In this document: positions 915 through 8,068 of the stretch, one piece after another | How the letters are laid out: the number at the start of each line of letters is the position of its first letter | Numbering within the stretch: the stretch's first letter is position 1 | DNA from: Armatimonadia bacterium | Lineage (GTDB): Bacteria > Armatimonadota > Zipacnadia > Zipacnadales > JABUFB01 | Length of the DNA stretch: 64,000 bases | Reading direction: 5' to 3' | Assembly: GCA_039679385.1 (NCBI GenBank) | Contig: JBDKVB010000121.1 | Coordinates: forward strand, 1-64,000 | Made by a program: the position numbers and the translations under genes | The notes under the pieces: model-generated | The model's input: the letters and a program-made list of their open reading frames with translations, nothing else | Databases searched by the model: none | Told to the model about the DNA's origin: nothing

Positions 915-2369
915 ATGAAGGTAGCGCGCAGGGCTGTGCGTGTGCTGATAGTGGGTCTGGTAGCGTCCCTGGGGTCACTGGCGATGGCTGCAACGGTGCG
1001 CGTCTCGACGCAAGCGGAACTGGATGCCGCGATTCACGCCGCCGGGCCAGGCGACACAATCGTCATGTCCGCCGGCGACTGGAAGGACACGGCGATCCTG
1101 CTCGAGGCAGAGGGTGAGCCGGATCGGCCGATCACGCTGCGGGCCGAGACACCGGGCAAGACGGTCCTGTGTGGCCGCTCGAAGCTGAGGATCGCCGGTG
1201 GCTATCTGCAGGTCGAGGGGTTGATGTTCACGCGTGGCGGCCTGCCCGGGGAAGACCCGATCGCCTTCCGCAAGGACCCCTCCAAGCTCTCTCATCACTG
1301 CCGCCTGACAGAGTGCGCGGTCGTGGACTACGACGCACCCGGCAGCGACAAGGACTGCAAATGGGTGTCGGTCTATGGCACTCACAACCGGGTGGATCAC
1401 TGCTACTTCGCGGGGAAGACCTCAGGAGGAACGCTGCTGGTGATCTGGGTCGGCCCGGAGCCCAATGAGCACCGCATCGACCACAATCACTTCGGCCCAC
1501 GGCCACCTCTCGGCCGCAATGGTGGGGAGACCATCCGCGTCGGAACGAGCGATGTGTCGATGAGCGTCTCGCGCACCGTGGTGGAGGGCAATCTCTTCGA
1601 GCGCTGCAACGGCGAGACCGAGATCATCTCCAGCAAGTCCTGCGAGAACGTCTACCGCTACAACACCTTCGTCGAGTGCGAGGGAGCCCTGACGCTGCGC
1701 CACGGTAACAGGTGTCTGGTGGAGGGCAACTGGTTCCTGGGGAAGGGCAAGAAGAACACCGGCGGCGTGCGCGTCATCGGTGAGGATCACCGGGTGGTGA
1801 ACAACTACTTCTGCGGCCTGACGGGGCGCTCCGGACGCTCGGCGGTCTCGCTGATGAACGGCCTGCCCAACTCGGAGCTGAGCGGTTACTTCCAGGTCAA
1901 GCGGGCCGTCGTCGCCTTCAACAGCATCATCGACTGCGACACGCCGATCACCCTTGGGCTCAAGACAGGCTCCGACCCGGCAAAGGACCTGCCGCCCATG
2001 GACTGCACGATCGCCAACAACCTGATCCGCGGCACCAGGGCCCCGCTGGTTACCGTGCAGACGGCGCCGACCGGCACGGTCTGGCACGGCAACCTGGTGA
2101 GTGGTGGCGATACGGGACTCGGCGACGAGCCCGGCCTCCAGAGCGTTGACCTGCGTCTTCGCGAGGCGCCCGACGGTCTGTGGCGGCCTGCACCTGACAG
2201 TCCGGTATGTAGTGCGGCGATCGGCGGCTTCCCCTTTGTCACCGAGGACATCGATGGGCAGCCCCGCGGGACAACCTATGATGTGGGTTGCGATCAGCTC
2301 GCCACAGGGCCGGTGACACGCCATCCCCTGACGCCCGCGCAAGTCGGGCCGTCCTGGAGACCACAGTAG
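915..2369 (+). CDS. Polysaccharide lyase family 6 (chondroitinase B / alginate lyase type)
   Basis: This 484-residue protein has a signal peptide (residues 1-25, ending AMA). A beta-helix follows, with the PL6 signature. The segments around SSKSCENVYRYNTF and LTLRHGN supply the catalytic Lys241 (the Bronsted base in the family) and Arg262 (the acid). PL6 enzymes cleave alginate or dermatan sulfate by beta-elimination, usually with calcium. An AGGAGGGG ribosome binding site sits just before the ATG, overlapping the end of the upstream beta-helix gene, so the two are probably one operon. The gene converges on a heparinase II/III-like lyase, giving a small cluster for uronate-containing polysaccharide breakdown. 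Family assignment is firm. Alginate versus glycosaminoglycan specificity cannot be read from the sequence. Confidence 0.9.
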   Translation: MKVARRAVRVLIVGLVASLGSLAMAATVRVSTQAELDAAIHAAGPGDTIVMSAGDWKDTAILLEAEGEPDRPITLRAETPGKTVLCGRSKLRIAGGYLQVEGLMFTRGGLPGEDPIAFRKDPSKLSHHCRLTECAVVDYDAPGSDKDCKWVSVYGTHNRVDHCYFAGKTSGGTLLVIWVGPEPNEHRIDHNHFGPRPPLGRNGGETIRVGTSDVSMSVSRTVVEGNLFERCNGETEIISSKSCENVYRYNTFVECEGALTLRHGNRCLVEGNWFLGKGKKNTGGVRVIGEDHRVVNNYFCGLTGRSGRSAVSLMNGLPNSELSGYFQVKRAVVAFNSIIDCDTPITLGLKTGSDPAKDLPPMDCTIANNLIRGTRAPLVTVQTAPTGTVWHGNLVSGGDTGLGDEPGLQSVDLRLREAPDGLWRPAPDSPVCSAAIGGFPFVTEDIDGQPRGTTYDVGCDQLATGPVTRHPLTPAQVGPSWRPQ

Positions 2370-2396
2370 TCGGCATACCCGCCGGTCAGCCCAGGC

Positions 2397-4967
2397 TTAG
2401 CGGTTCAGGATCACATCGCCATCGGCGGCCTGGAAGACCACCGAGAGCTTGTCGCCAAGGGTAACGGTGATCGTGTCTGCGGTCGCCACTGCCTTCACGG
2501 GTGGACAGGGATCGACCGACAGCACTGTCACGAAGTTCGCGGACTGCGCCGCGGGTGCGCCGGCCTTGAGCACCGTACCCCGATCCTTGCCCTCCAGCAC
2601 GTCCTTGTCGAGAGTTGCGCTGAGGCCCTCGGGTAGCGCGAACTGCAGGTGCAGGGTCTGCTCGCCCTTTGTGAGGTCGTAGCCGCTGCCGGTCTGCGTG
2701 CAGGTGGCGCCGGAGTGCATGAGCCACTCGAAGCGACGCGGTCCTGAGGCTGATTCGAGGCGGTCGCAGAGGATGACGTACTTGTCCTGGACCACGGCCA
2801 GCCACCGGTACATGGTCTTCATCTTCGAGTAGTACGCCGAGGCATCTCCCCGCACGGCGAAGAGGCCCTCACGCTGCACGACCTTGTCGATCTTGCCCAT
2901 CTTGGCCTGGTTGGCGATGGGCTGCAGCCAGCCACCACCTCGCTGCGTCGGTCCCTGACCGTCCACCAGGATCAGGTTGTGGTTGGCGCCCGCCTTGTTC
3001 TGCTTCGGGTAACCATCGTCGGTCGCCCACATCTGGCCCTTCCAGAAGAGCATGAAGTGGTTGGCATCTGGGTGGTCGTGGGCGATGTTCACCCAGCCGC
3101 GCACCAACTCGTTGAGGCGATGGCCACCATAGGGGCCGCACTTGAGCAGCACCGCGAGGGAGTTCGGGTCGGTCCAGGAGGTGCGGTAGGTGGCCAGCTC
3201 CAGGTCCTCGAAGTAGCGCGAGGTCGGGATCTGGTCGAGCGGCGTGGGCTTGAGGTCGGCGTCATACCACAGGATGCACCAGGGGTAGTAGGAGAAGGAG
3301 CCGGGCTCGGCGTCGTAGGCGGCCTTCATCAGGGCCTGGGCGGCCGGGTCCTTGTAGTAGGAGGCCAGCCGGAACAGGTAGTGGTTGAAGTAGTACACGC
3401 CGGTGCCGCAGTCGCCGAAGTTGAAGGTGTCATGGAAGCCCGGTGTGAGCAGGTGTGCGCGGAAGAAGGGAACGTTGCGCAGTCCCGGCGTGCTGCTGAA
3501 CAGGTCGACGTCGGTGCAGTGCCGCAGGGCCTCGAAGAGCAGGACCACGTAGTTGTAGCCGAAGGCCGAGTAGTGAGGGCCCTCGTGGCTGGCTCCGTCG
3601 GGCGGGATCGCGTCGGAGACTTTCCGAGCGAAGCCCAGCGCAGCAGCCACATAGCCCTCGGCCTCGGGGACCTCGCCATCAATCGCCAGCGCCCCCAGCG
3701 TCAGCCCACTCAGACGATGGTGCACGTGGTTGTTCTGCTCGTCGCCCTTCCAGTACCCGGCGGTAGTCCCATCCATGAAGCCGGTCCAGTAGAGCTCGGC
3801 GACCTGTCGGAGGAGCTTGTCACGGACCTTCTGCCTCTGCTCCTCGGTCATGAGCCCGTAGCACCAGTCATAGGCGCAGGCGATTCCGGTGAGCATGTTC
3901 GCGGCGCCCATGGACTGGTTGATCTCCTCGCCCGTCCCCCAGTCAGGGTAGGAGGTGAGCACGTCCATCCACTCGATGGCCTTCTTGGCGTAGGCTTCGT
4001 CACCGGTCGCGATATACCCGAAGGCCAGGGAAGTCAGCCGCCACCAACCCCACTGCTGCATGTCCTGATCGTTCGAGCATTGCGCAGCGTTCGCCGGCGG
4101 CATCTGCTGCACGTAGCTGTTCGCGCTGCCCATGAGGCGGTCGAAGAAGTCCTTGTGGGTGGTCTTGCAGCGCTCGCGGATTGCGGGGAGGTCCTCGGCG
4201 GTGAAGAACAGTCGCGGGTGCTTGCCGACGAGTTCCGGCTTGAGGGGCACGGGCGTCACCTGCGGTGGCTTGCGCTTCTCACCCGGTAGCGGTCGCGTGC
4301 GCTCGCTCAGCACCGCCGGCTGGTACGTGACCGAGATGTCGTCGACGAGTACGGGCTCCTCGAGCTCCACCGGACCGCGCAGGTAGATGCCGGAGAAGCC
4401 GCGGAAGAACTTGCTGGCCATGATGTCGAAGGCGCTGGCGACTCTGCCGTCGACGGAGACCACGATGTCCGTCTCATTGCTGACCACGAACTTCCACTCG
4501 TGCCAGCCGGGCCTGCGTGGCGCTCGGGCATAGCGACGGCTTGCCCAGCCGCTGCCGTCGGCGGTGCTGACCCAGCCGTAGGAGTCATTGCCCGCCAGGT
4601 ACGGGGCATAGAGGAGGCCGAAGACGAGTTGCTGGGAGGCGGAGTTGGCGATGCCCCAGACGGGACCGTAAGCCCGCCCTCGGGCGGCCTCACCCTCGAG
4701 CTTGAATCCGGAATCGTACACCCACAGGGTCACGGTCCCGAAGCCGTCGGTGGGGCTGACGGGGATCAGCACTTCGCCGCCCTTACCGACCCGCAGAGCG
4801 CGGGCACCGGAATGCACCACATCGGCGACGACCTGCACATCGCCCTTCTGGGTCACCCCGGCGGGGAGGCCGGCTTCGAAGTCGAAGCTCACCGTGTCGC
4901 AATAGGTCTGTGGGGCAAGCAGAGCGAGCAGAAGAGCGGCCATTCCGACGAGGGTAAAGCGCGTCAT
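2397..4967 (-). CDS. Heparinase II/III-like polysaccharide lyase with N-terminal LamG-like domain
   Basis: This is an 856-residue secreted protein with a signal peptide of about 23 residues. Residues ~25-215 form a jelly-roll resembling LamG or carbohydrate-binding domains. Residues ~240-560 carry the alpha/alpha-toroid lyase domain, beginning with HPRLFFTAEDLPAIRER and including SHEGPHYSAFGYNYV at about residue 455, which supplies His/Tyr candidates for catalysis. From about residue 610 a beta-sandwich with HDHPDANHF and DGYPKQNKAGANHN matches the heparinase II/III C-terminal family. The start has a GGGAG site 10 bases upstream. The gene lies 73 bases downstream of the sugar dehydratase in the same direction, probably one operon. 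The likely role is eliminative cleavage of acidic polysaccharides at the cell surface; the substrate is unknown. Confidence 0.87.
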   Translation of the reverse strand: MTRFTLVGMAALLLALLAPQTYCDTVSFDFEAGLPAGVTQKGDVQVVADVVHSGARALRVGKGGEVLIPVSPTDGFGTVTLWVYDSGFKLEGEAARGRAYGPVWGIANSASQQLVFGLLYAPYLAGNDSYGWVSTADGSGWASRRYARAPRRPGWHEWKFVVSNETDIVVSVDGRVASAFDIMASKFFRGFSGIYLRGPVELEEPVLVDDISVTYQPAVLSERTRPLPGEKRKPPQVTPVPLKPELVGKHPRLFFTAEDLPAIRERCKTTHKDFFDRLMGSANSYVQQMPPANAAQCSNDQDMQQWGWWRLTSLAFGYIATGDEAYAKKAIEWMDVLTSYPDWGTGEEINQSMGAANMLTGIACAYDWCYGLMTEEQRQKVRDKLLRQVAELYWTGFMDGTTAGYWKGDEQNNHVHHRLSGLTLGALAIDGEVPEAEGYVAAALGFARKVSDAIPPDGASHEGPHYSAFGYNYVVLLFEALRHCTDVDLFSSTPGLRNVPFFRAHLLTPGFHDTFNFGDCGTGVYYFNHYLFRLASYYKDPAAQALMKAAYDAEPGSFSYYPWCILWYDADLKPTPLDQIPTSRYFEDLELATYRTSWTDPNSLAVLLKCGPYGGHRLNELVRGWVNIAHDHPDANHFMLFWKGQMWATDDGYPKQNKAGANHNLILVDGQGPTQRGGGWLQPIANQAKMGKIDKVVQREGLFAVRGDASAYYSKMKTMYRWLAVVQDKYVILCDRLESASGPRRFEWLMHSGATCTQTGSGYDLTKGEQTLHLQFALPEGLSATLDKDVLEGKDRGTVLKAGAPAAQSANFVTVLSVDPCPPVKAVATADTITVTLGDKLSVVFQAADGDVILNR

Positions 4968-5040: not shown

Positions 5041-6129
5041 TCAGTCCGTCCATCGCACCTTCAGAGTTGACGCGACCTTCAGGTGCTTGTTCAGTATCTC
5101 GCCGGTGAGCTCGCGCAGGGCTCCGGGTGCGGGGTCCTGCGACTGGCGCTTGTACCACTCGACGACGGCGGCCAGTCCGTCCCTGAGCTCGAAGGCCGGT
5201 CGCCACCCTAACAGCCGGTCGGCCTTGGTGCAGTCCAGGCTCTGGTGCACGAAGGGCTCGGCACGCTCACTGCCACGCTTCCAGGTGAGGCCGGAGCCCC
5301 ACAGGTCGCACATCATGGTGGCGAGGTCACCGTTCGGCACTCCGCGCCCCTCGCGCGGGCCAAAGTTGAAGGCCTGCCCGTCGATGGGTTGCTGGTCACA
5401 CTGTGCCAGCAGCGAGAGGTAGCCCGTGACCGTATCGCCGACGAAGGTGTAGGGGCGAGTGAAGGCCGGGTTGAGAATGATCGGCTGCTCGCCCCTGGAC
5501 AGGGCGAGGGCCACATCGACAAAGATGCGTCCGGCGTGGTGGTCGCCGGGGACGAGCACGTTTCCGGCTCGGGCAATCCCCAGGTGCTGCCCCGCGGGTT
5601 GAAGGTAACCGGTGTAGTAGTCGCGGGTGATGAACTCGGCGCAAGCCTTCGAGACGGCATAGGGACCCGTCGCCACGAGCGGGTCGTCCTCGGTCCAGGG
5701 CTCTCCGCCTTTGTCGCGGTAGACCTTATCGGTGGTGACCACAACGGCGCGCGGAACCTCACACCGGCGCACGGCCTCAAGGAAGGTGGCGGTGCCCAAG
5801 ACGTTGATGGCGTAGGTGTCGAGGGGTCGCTGCTTGCACTCGCCGACGATCGCCATGGCTGCAAGGTGAAGGGCGGCGGTGACCTTCTCGGTCTTCATCA
5901 CGTGCTGCAGACCCTCCAGGTCGCGAACATCCAGCTCGCAGGTCAGCACGCGCTCGTCCTCACCCAGACCGGAGGACTGGTAGCAGGTGCCGGGAAGGCT
6001 GAAGGAGCGGTCGACGCCGACGAGCTTCTCCACACCCGCAGCGAGAAGGTACCAGCCCAACCAGGTGCCCTTGGCACCCGCGAGCCCGGTGACGAGTACC
6101 GTCTGACCCTTGAGACGACCCTGGAACAT
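5041..6129 (-). CDS. NAD-dependent NDP-sugar 4,6-dehydratase/epimerase (CDP-glucose 4,6-dehydratase-like)
   Basis: This 362-residue extended short-chain dehydrogenase has an N-terminal Rossmann fold. The glycine motif is G15-LA-G18-AK-G21-TWL, close to the GFKGSWL form typical of CDP-glucose 4,6-dehydratases. The TTDK segment (132-135) and Tyr157-xxx-Lys161 are the expected catalytic residues. The downstream substrate domain carries the GNVLVPGDHH-type signature. These enzymes form 4-keto-6-deoxy sugars, the first step to many surface deoxysugars. An AGGGGAG site precedes the ATG. It shares direction with the heparinase-like lyase 73 bases downstream. RfbG-like function is the best guess; a different nucleotide-sugar epimerase or dehydratase is possible. 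Confidence 0.82.
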   Translation of the reverse strand: MFQGRLKGQTVLVTGLAGAKGTWLGWYLLAAGVEKLVGVDRSFSLPGTCYQSSGLGEDERVLTCELDVRDLEGLQHVMKTEKVTAALHLAAMAIVGECKQRPLDTYAINVLGTATFLEAVRRCEVPRAVVVTTDKVYRDKGGEPWTEDDPLVATGPYAVSKACAEFITRDYYTGYLQPAGQHLGIARAGNVLVPGDHHAGRIFVDVALALSRGEQPIILNPAFTRPYTFVGDTVTGYLSLLAQCDQQPIDGQAFNFGPREGRGVPNGDLATMMCDLWGSGLTWKRGSERAEPFVHQSLDCTKADRLLGWRPAFELRDGLAAVVEWYKRQSQDPAPGALRELTGEILNKHLKVASTLKVRWTD

Positions 6130-6141
6130 CGCTATCTCCCC

Positions 6142-7998
6142 TCAGTCCCGGCAGCATAGGTTCATCATGGAGTTGACTTTCGTGGCGTTTCTGGGTATAA
6201 TGTTCTTGTCCGACCGTGTCCGCCCTAACCCGCGGGGCATTTGGACGAGCCGAAAGGTTGGCCGAGCATCGACGCGAAGAGGCGGGTTGCTACGCACGGA
6301 ACTCGGAGGGCACGGCTCTAAGGAGCCCTGAAGAAAGGCCTTTGAAAGAGGGCCTTTTTTTGGTTCTCCCTTCTGGCGGCCAGGGCAGTCTGATGTCTCA
6401 GGTCTGAAGCCAGTCAGAAGTACCGTGCGTTCCCCTGTGTCACGAGCGAAGGGAACCAAGCCCTCCTCTAGGGAGGAGGTGCCGGGTCGCGAGACGGTGC
6501 GGCGGAACAGGATGAAGGACTTGAACTGCGGCAGGTTGAGCCGCTCGTAGTCGCCGCTCTGCGAGCACCGATAGACATACCCCAGTGCTGTAGGCAATTC
6601 GGCGCTGCCCTCGGCAATCCTCTTGTCGTACTCCTGGTCGAAGACGAGCCAACGCGGAGGGGACTTGGCAAAGCCCTCGGACACCTCGCGCAGCGCCCAG
6701 GGGTGAGTCAGGTGATCGTCCATGGCGAAACGCGTGGGCGCCACGCGGTCACTGTAGAGGTAGACGCCCGTGGTCATGTTGTCGGCGTAACCCACGCAGT
6801 AGATGGTGTCGCTCGGTGTGGTGTCGGCGTCGATGATCCGTGCAACCTCCAGGGCCTCCTTGGGCCACGCCTCGCCCTCGAGGAAGTGCACAGTCTTCTT
6901 GACGGTCGGCAGCTCGTTACGCGCCACAGGCAGAAGCGTGACGACCAGGGCTGCGAGTACTGCCAGACGGGCCAGGTGCGACCGGCGGCTTGCCCACTCC
7001 CACACCCAGGCCATTCCGAGAGCGCCCAGGAGGCAGAGGGGCGCAACGACGGCACCCATGTGATGAGTGTACCGGGGCCCGCTGGACCAGGGCGAAGCGA
7101 TGGACAGCACCAGCCAGACCCACAGGCTGCGACGCACGAGCACGCTCTGAGGAGGCAAGGCGCGGAGCGCCGTGATCACGCCGCCCAACAACAGGGGCAA
7201 GGAAGTGACGGCGAACTCCGTCCACGTGGGGAGGAACTGAAGGCGGTGAAGGCCGTCCGAGTAGCTCGCGGCGGACTCCTGGCCCAGAAACCCGATCTGC
7301 ACGAGATTCGCAAGCTGCCCGGCGGCGGCGAACCAAACCGCGACGACAGCATTGAGCGCCACGGCTCCGGAGAGGAACCAGAGGGCACTGCGCCAGCCTC
7401 CGGCAGCCATCCAGGCAAGAATCGTCAGGGCGACGAGGTCGAGGACAGCGGTCTGGCGGGACTGCAGGGCCAGTCCGCCGAGGACTCCCGCGATCACCAG
7501 ATAGGGGCGGGTTCGGCCACACAGAATCGCGGCGACGGCAGCCACCACGAAGACCGACACCAGGAGCTCAGTGGTCACCGTGCCCTTGATGCCCACGGTC
7601 TTCTGGCTGATGCAGAGGACATAGGCGATCGCGGCGAGAACGCCGACGGAGCGAGACTGCAGCCGCTTCCCGATCAGCATCATCAGGCAAGCCGCCAGCC
7701 ACACCAGGGCCATGCCGACGCAGCGGACGCCGATAATGCCCCAGCCGGCGCGGAACACCAGCCCATAGAGGAGCCAGATGACAGGAGGTTTGCCGTCGAA
7801 GATCGCGTCATAGAGGGGACGGCCGTGGATCAGCCACTCGCGGCCGCCGTAGGCCCAGTAGCCTTCGTCCCAACCGATGGGATAGGCCAGTTCGTGGAGC
7901 CGCACGAGGACACTGAGCGCACCGAGAGCAAGGACCCAGCCCAGCGTCCGCTGACGACTGTCGGAGGCGCTAAGGGGGCCCTCGGACGAGGTGGTCAA
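6142..7998 (-). CDS. GT39-like integral membrane glycosyltransferase with an unusual C-terminal tail
   Basis: The predicted 618-residue protein begins with a cytoplasmic tail, then a first membrane helix. An external loop carries the Asp44-Glu45 pair (GWDEGYWAYGGR), the usual metal/donor-site motif of the PMT/ArnT superfamily. About ten further hydrophobic segments follow, then a soluble C-terminal part ending near YERLNLPQFKSFILFRR. Such enzymes transfer a sugar from a polyprenyl-phosphate donor onto an acceptor on the outer face of the cytoplasmic membrane. The start appears to be TTG with a weak binding site. The last ~110 codons (6,142-6,480) look unlike a protein domain and lie opposite the small RNA promoter, body and terminator, so the true end may be near 6,480 or a stop may have been lost. 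Confidence 0.75.
   Translation of the reverse strand: MTTSSEGPLSASDSRQRTLGWVLALGALSVLVRLHELAYPIGWDEGYWAYGGREWLIHGRPLYDAIFDGKPPVIWLLYGLVFRAGWGIIGVRCVGMALVWLAACLMMLIGKRLQSRSVGVLAAIAYVLCISQKTVGIKGTVTTELLVSVFVVAAVAAILCGRTRPYLVIAGVLGGLALQSRQTAVLDLVALTILAWMAAGGWRSALWFLSGAVALNAVVAVWFAAAGQLANLVQIGFLGQESAASYSDGLHRLQFLPTWTEFAVTSLPLLLGGVITALRALPPQSVLVRRSLWVWLVLSIASPWSSGPRYTHHMGAVVAPLCLLGALGMAWVWEWASRRSHLARLAVLAALVVTLLPVARNELPTVKKTVHFLEGEAWPKEALEVARIIDADTTPSDTIYCVGYADNMTTGVYLYSDRVAPTRFAMDDHLTHPWALREVSEGFAKSPPRWLVFDQEYDKRIAEGSAELPTALGYVYRCSQSGDYERLNLPQFKSFILFRRTVSRPGTSSLEEGLVPFARDTGERTVLLTGFRPETSDCPGRQKGEPKKGPLSKAFLQGSLEPCPPSSVRSNPPLRVDARPTFRLVQMPRGLGRTRSDKNIIPRNATKVNSMMNLCCRD
6173..6201 (+). promoter_or_regulatory. 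Strong sigma-70 promoter for the small RNA at 6208
   Basis: TTGACT at 6173-6178 and a perfect TATAAT at 6196-6201 are separated by exactly 17 bases. Transcription would begin near 6208 on the + strand. No + strand protein gene follows; the next elements are a structured region and a terminator. Confidence 0.75.
6208..6361 (+). ncRNA. Candidate structured small RNA, about 154 nt, family unknown
   Basis: This interval is bounded by a near-consensus promoter and a Rho-independent terminator and holds no + strand open frame. The two ends pair to make a long interrupted rod. Bases 6209-6213 pair with 6303-6307, 6214-6219 with 6294-6299, and 6227-6233 with 6282-6288. An internal loop lies between the second and third helices. 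The distal part includes a GCC-GAAA-GGU hairpin (6249-6258) with a GNRA tetraloop. A second hairpin, GGCUC/GAGCC (6314-6327), precedes the terminator. The rod with internal loops resembles 6S RNA in outline, but I recognise no conserved 6S, SRP, RNase P or riboswitch core. It lies wholly antisense to the tail of the GT39-like frame. Confidence 0.6.
6334..6361 (+). terminator. Rho-independent terminator of the small RNA
   Basis: A seven-base-pair stem AAAGGCC / GGCCTTT (6334-6340 and 6351-6357) runs directly into a seven-T tract (6355-6361) on the + strand. The opposite strand carries matching A residues, so it might also act weakly in reverse. Confidence 0.8.
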
Positions 7999-8068
7999 AA
8001 CCGGTCACTCACTTCGGAAGAGGGTGCCTGGAGGAGTCCGCCGCCACGCTCGACCACCACTCATGGTA

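Follow-up and report, generated by a model that had tools for sequence, protein, structure and literature searches.

A predicted stand-alone small RNA with crossing conserved helices in a family of Armatimonadota

The RNA systems closest to the locus described here are the Hfq-class sRNAs (SdsR/RyeB), 6S RNA (RF00013), the HDV-like ribozymes and the CsrB/RsmZ decoys. HDV-like ribozymes form a nested double pseudoknot, whose strand order is P0, P1, P2, P2', P0', P1' in the helix naming that we use below. Stand-alone regulatory RNAs of Armatimonadota appear to be almost unstudied; a search of the open-access literature found no paper devoted to them.

The predicted RNA lies in a 64,000-nt stretch of the genome of an Armatimonadia bacterium (the window; contig C121 of genome G000, 5.6 Mb in 184 contigs). 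In size, in being a stand-alone unit and in its terminator hairpin it resembles the Hfq-class sRNAs, and Hfq is encoded in the window genome; however, no sequence family is shared with them, and the 5' part of the window RNA is taken up by a conserved long-range or pseudoknotted fold. It has the length class and the stand-alone gene in common with 6S RNA, but 6S RNA is a rod with a central bubble and the pairs of the window RNA form none. The order of crossing strands in its 5' domain may be that of the HDV-like ribozymes, with which P0, P1 and P2 agree, although P0 is without compensatory change here, and a CNRA-type motif comes before the closing strand, as CGGA in all three copies (a short motif, and weak evidence). 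Unlike these ribozymes, the window RNA has no cleavable leader (the -10 box ends at 6201 and the first helix begins at 6207), no P1.1 partner and no Rfam match, and it has an extra 7-bp helix formed from the loop. The CsrB/RsmZ decoys are likewise stand-alone sRNAs, and CsrA and some conserved GGA are found here as well; the number of GGA motifs is nevertheless near chance (4-6 vs 3-4 expected), and repeated GGA hairpins are absent.

The RNA gene and its two homologues

The initial annotation had proposed a small RNA with a promoter, long-range pairing and a terminator at this spot, and the analysis supports this, with two homologues added. The elements of the gene are as follows.

6173..6201, + strand: sigma-70-type promoter TTGACT-17-TATAAT; 11/12 consensus matches; -10 region GGGTATRMT kept in both homologues
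6207..6316, + strand: conserved RNA core; 76.6% identity to G000:C14:336-444 and 72.0% to G003:C512:4108-4216
6297..6307, + strand: conserved motif CGGAAMYCGGA; near-identical in the three copies; directly 5' of the P1 3' strand
6331..6360, + strand: intrinsic terminator hairpin, from the fold; 13-bp stem (6331-6343/6348-6360) that runs into the U tract

The predicted transcript is ~153 nt long with a G+C content of 67% (start inferred at ~6208, end at ~6360). The promoter is the sole site with two or fewer mismatches in the 64 kb, where 0.29 would be expected; it is suggestive of an RNA gene and by itself not decisive, because 26% of shuffled sequences also have at least one such site. The terminator hairpin was not picked up by a simple terminator scan because its T tract belongs to the stem. 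The folding energy of the RNA strand is -67.1, compared with a shuffled mean of -56.5 (z -2.5), and 0 of 200 shuffles folded as well. Promoter, terminator hairpin and folding energy taken alone are only suggestive of an RNA gene.

A blastn search of 41 genomes detected a second copy in the window genome (C14:312-442, E 1.6e-14), and a two-sequence covariance model detected a third that comes from the same family but a different genus (on the minus strand at G003:C512:4108-4216, E 1.7e-17). The latter contig is the public JAGPGE010000539 of Armatimonadetes bacterium Gw_SlDig_bin_68. With the window copy labelled A, the C14 copy B and the G003 copy C, the core identities are 76.6% (A-B), 72.0% (A-C) and 75.2% (B-C), and covariance-model matches of the conserved core have E values of 1e-17 to 1e-27. 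The similarity covers the promoter, the core and the terminator position, and the flanks are 54-64% identical vs 52 +/- 5 for random sequence; shared flanks or terminal repeats were not seen among the three copies. A promoter-like site with the -10 sequence GGGTATRMT is equally placed in each copy. Each also has a 3' hairpin, which occupies the same position in C14 and is followed by a poorer U tract in G003. As judged from the alignment, the copies are old and under selection, because they are just 72-77% identical and carry compensatory changes. What began as a promoter and a hairpin spotted by eye in raw sequence is now an evolutionarily supported RNA gene, and we consider it highly probable that the spot holds a real one.

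A model search of 291 Armatimonadota genomes, the nearest 40 of which were searched more sensitively, returned only the 3 copies in 2 genomes. Weak extra matches (L045, L046, L065 and L069) were checked in detail and rejected as lying inside or antisense to protein genes. A strict DNA pattern scan of 85,000 genomes gave nothing; a loose scan of the same genomes yielded 32 stretches, and the covariance model confirmed just one of these, the known G003 contig. Phages, plasmids and viral contigs gave no match. The RNA is absent from the sister genome G002 (98% complete), and this absence and the sparse spread argue against a core regulator. A further genome, G001, has the genes that surround the C14 copy but lacks the RNA. 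Both G002 and G003 have the ABC-F gene directly beside the dehydratase gene, without RNA or glycosyltransferase at that place. Gain by transfer and repeated loss both fit the patchy presence. In the window, the glycosyltransferase and the RNA appear as an extra block (6130-8068) between the ABC-F and dehydratase genes.

The initial annotation had left no room for a protein. This is not entirely accurate, as open frames exist (e.g., 73 aa at 6110-6331), but the evidence speaks against coding. A single + strand frame stays open throughout the three copies; it was examined and rejected for want of a clear third-position excess: the differences between B and C number 7, 9 and 11 at codon positions 1-3, respectively, and the 5' part of the frame has no third-position excess in any copy pair. 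Copy A is frame-shifted relative to B and C in the 3' half, and the nucleotides there are still conserved. We concluded from these observations that the conserved pattern is not coding.

On the minus strand a membrane glycosyltransferase-like ORF (7998 to 6142), named from its sequence by eye and without a Pfam match, stays open for ~120 codons past the end of its paralogue L051, and the extra codons (6142-6506) overlap the RNA gene in antisense. They probably do not belong to the protein, and the RNA gene would be hidden by automatic annotation.

The window copy has this ORF and a sugar-nucleotide dehydratase gene as neighbours, and its next gene is convergent. The C14 copy adjoins DUF6504 and DnaE-type polymerase genes, and the G003 copy adjoins a diversity-generating retroelement (DGR) with bAvd and a reverse transcriptase. 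A cis-acting leader or riboswitch was considered and set aside, given the convergent gene in the window and the different genes beside the other copies; a cis-acting role seems unlikely because the three copies adjoin unrelated genes.

Conserved helices and covariation

When the alignment of the three sequences was scanned exhaustively for stems with at least 5 pairs kept in every sequence, five stems were found. Four of these are listed below together with a small hairpin; the fifth is a 5-pair overlapping alternative to P0.

6227..6233 / 6282..6288, + strand: long-range helix Lr (alignment columns 21-27/76-82); 7 pairs, 100% kept, 3 compensatory changes
6216..6221 / 6308..6313, + strand: closing helix P1, GUGUCC / GGGCAC (columns 10-15/103-108); 6 pairs kept, 1 compensatory change (C-G to A-U)
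6222..6226 / 6234..6238, + strand: tentative hairpin P2 (columns 16-20/28-32); 5 pairs kept, 1 compensatory change
6207..6212 / 6242..6247, + strand: possible helix P0, tentative (columns 1-6/36-41); 6 pairs kept, one-sided changes only; crosses P1
6248..6259, + strand: small hairpin P3 (AGCC-GAAA-GGUU); possible in all three copies if loop length may vary

The loop of P2 is the 5' strand of Lr, and the 3' strand of P0 belongs to the conserved UGGACGAG motif. An Lr-like stem was found in 0 of 1000 column shuffles. The total of 5 compensatory changes was reached in 0 of 2000 column shuffles, and five stems in 1.1% of shuffles. For P0, P1, P2 and Lr taken together, 72 of 72 cells are paired with 5 compensatory changes, which 3 of 500 residue shuffles also achieved; sliding the partner strands left 34-46% of cells paired, with 0-1 double changes. 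P0 and P2 are not individually significant because there are only three sequences and 15% of column shuffles of this alignment contain some stem of at least 6 pairs.

These results redraw the fold that was first proposed. Of its three long-range helices, 6227-6233/6282-6288 (Lr) is the one for which covarying pairs, looked for in relatives as the initial annotation had advised, were found. The other two, 6209-6213/6303-6307 and 6214-6219/6294-6299, break in the homologues (86.7% and 83.3% of cells paired, respectively, with no compensatory change). A hairpin was correctly placed at 6248-6259, but its GNRA loop is particular to the window copy: GAAA there is replaced by CUUGU and CGUUG in the homologues.

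P1 is nested with Lr and P0 is nested with P2, and the P1+Lr set crosses the P0+P2 set. Because the conserved stem sets cross, the fold is best described, from this comparison, as a pseudoknot or two-state RNA; the helices do not stack into the rod that had been suggested. We speak of two states because P2 and Lr fully formed together look sterically tight, as the 7-nt loop would be wholly paired.

Possible functions of the RNA

The features of a trans-encoded sRNA are present: an own promoter-like site, an intrinsic terminator, no conserved ORF and a structure that is not tied to one neighbour gene. We give about even chances to the reading that the RNA acts as a trans-acting sRNA and, jointly with it, that the three or more copies constitute a previously uncatalogued RNA family, so far confined to one Armatimonadota family. 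Independent transcription would produce a non-coding structured RNA of ~153 nt, in which, as the comparison of the copies shows, a compact core closed by P1 and the long-range Lr is followed by the terminator hairpin. Less firmly, the 5' local fold (P0+P2), which crosses P1 and Lr, may generate a pseudoknot, or it may be exchanged for the long-range fold after the 3' half has been made. A regulatory sRNA of this kind would act in trans, with conserved single-stranded candidates around UGGACGAG and CGGAAMYCGGA contacting target mRNAs or protein and with the U-tailed terminator hairpin as the end to which Hfq may bind. All four genomes of the family encode Hfq, and the sRNA is possibly Hfq-assisted. 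The poor U tract after the hairpin of the G003 copy and the very sparse distribution, with the RNA missing even in the 98%-complete G002, weigh against a trans-acting sRNA.

The conserved pairs may also be taken as two exclusive folds, a 5' local double-hairpin with HDV-like strand order and P1+Lr, of a trans-acting conformational switch or of a relic ribozyme fold that now serves in regulation. This would be the first such catalogued sRNA family of Armatimonadota; we see only a slim chance that it is correct. If the alternative folds are real, the RNA would offer a compact model for switching RNAs that act in trans. At present the finding is a small lineage-restricted addition with no surprise in kind, and it provides a concrete RNA family that can be tested and for which three members, a defined fold and a covariance model are available.

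Among the explanations that compete with a trans-acting sRNA, the one that survives best, although unlikely, is that the fold itself is functional, in ligand sensing, in a ribozyme-like role or in switching between the exclusive conformations P0+P2 and P1+Lr. Both crossing pair sets are kept in 3/3 copies, the strand order would match that of the HDV-like nested double pseudoknot, and CGGA precedes the P1 3' strand throughout. However, no Rfam ribozyme or riboswitch matched at E up to 10, the promoter sets the 5' end at P0 and leaves no upstream stretch for cleavage, P0 is followed by AG in 3/3 copies and not by the GG strand of P1.1, and the window copy is without a downstream gene to regulate. 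Self-cleavage of the window RNA would not be expected from a transcript that starts with the first helix and lacks the P1.1 strand.

Rather doubtful is a protein-binding decoy or scaffold, e.g., one that sequesters CsrA or some other RNA-binding protein, in place of a base-pairing sRNA. A CsrA gene is encoded in all four family genomes and every copy has GGA at three conserved positions, but the copies have 4, 5 and 6 GGA where 3.9, 3.1 and 3.0 are expected, the ANGGA form is not conserved, and the arrayed GGA hairpins of CsrB/RsmZ have no counterpart here. CsrA is also found in relatives without a window-type RNA. A CsrB-type sink is disfavoured because the GGA motifs are near expectation.

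We regard it as less probable again that the RNA is carried, or was left behind, by a MITE-like or island-borne segment that is mobile or moves horizontally, with movement, not cell function, accounting for its conservation. The ABC-F/dehydratase junction of G002 and G003 without RNA or glycosyltransferase, the C14-type neighbourhood of G001 without RNA, and the DGR that adjoins the G003 copy would fit such an origin. The copies are just 72-77% identical, though, with compensatory changes; common flanks or terminal repeats were not seen, matches in phages, plasmids or viral contigs were lacking, and losses would give the same pattern of presence. A link with the DGR was rejected: a DGR-type reverse transcriptase is missing from the window genome, and the G003 DGR was therefore taken as coincidence.

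In line with the initial annotation, no known RNA core was recognised. Rfam gave no match for the window at the gathering threshold and nothing significant for the three copies at permissive thresholds (E up to 10); the best score, for the 3' half of the window RNA, was SdsR (E 0.12, not significant), and the homologues had no SdsR match. The 6S-like outline drawn at first reading was rejected, as no copy matched RF00013 at E up to 10, and two of the three helices proposed for a rod with closing stem, central bubble and terminal stem are not conserved and the conserved stems cross. A divergent 6S or other housekeeping RNA, despite that outline and a GC-rich (67%), stand-alone gene, is hardly credible, since the window genome has a separate 6S gene (on G000:C91, with a score of 57.7 bits that exceeds the curated cut-off), none of the copies matches an Rfam housekeeping family, the conserved helices are not rod-like, and the RNA is absent from near-complete relatives.

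Observations at neighbouring loci

The DGR on G003:C512 (L009 1-3910) comprises an FGE-like target protein, bAvd, the reverse transcriptase and an AAC-rich template repeat; it is convergent with the third RNA copy, at a distance of ~200-400 bp. On the same contig (L009 4323-4409) a second, divergent promoter, TTTACA-17-TATAAT, lies ahead of GATCTTGCCCGACC, a sequence similar to the window RNA at its 5' end. Transcription from this promoter would run off the contig end, and its product is possibly another small RNA.

Upstream of the DUF6504 gene, which on C14 adjoins the DnaE-type polymerase gene, a conserved promoter TTGACTNTNGAAC...TTTGATATACT with GAAC/GTTC-like half sites was found in all four family genomes (L003 509-540; L053-L055). 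This promoter looks like an SOS-type operator. In the window, chondroitinase-B-like and heparinase II/III-like genes (915-4967) form a polysaccharide-degradation cluster beside the RNA locus.
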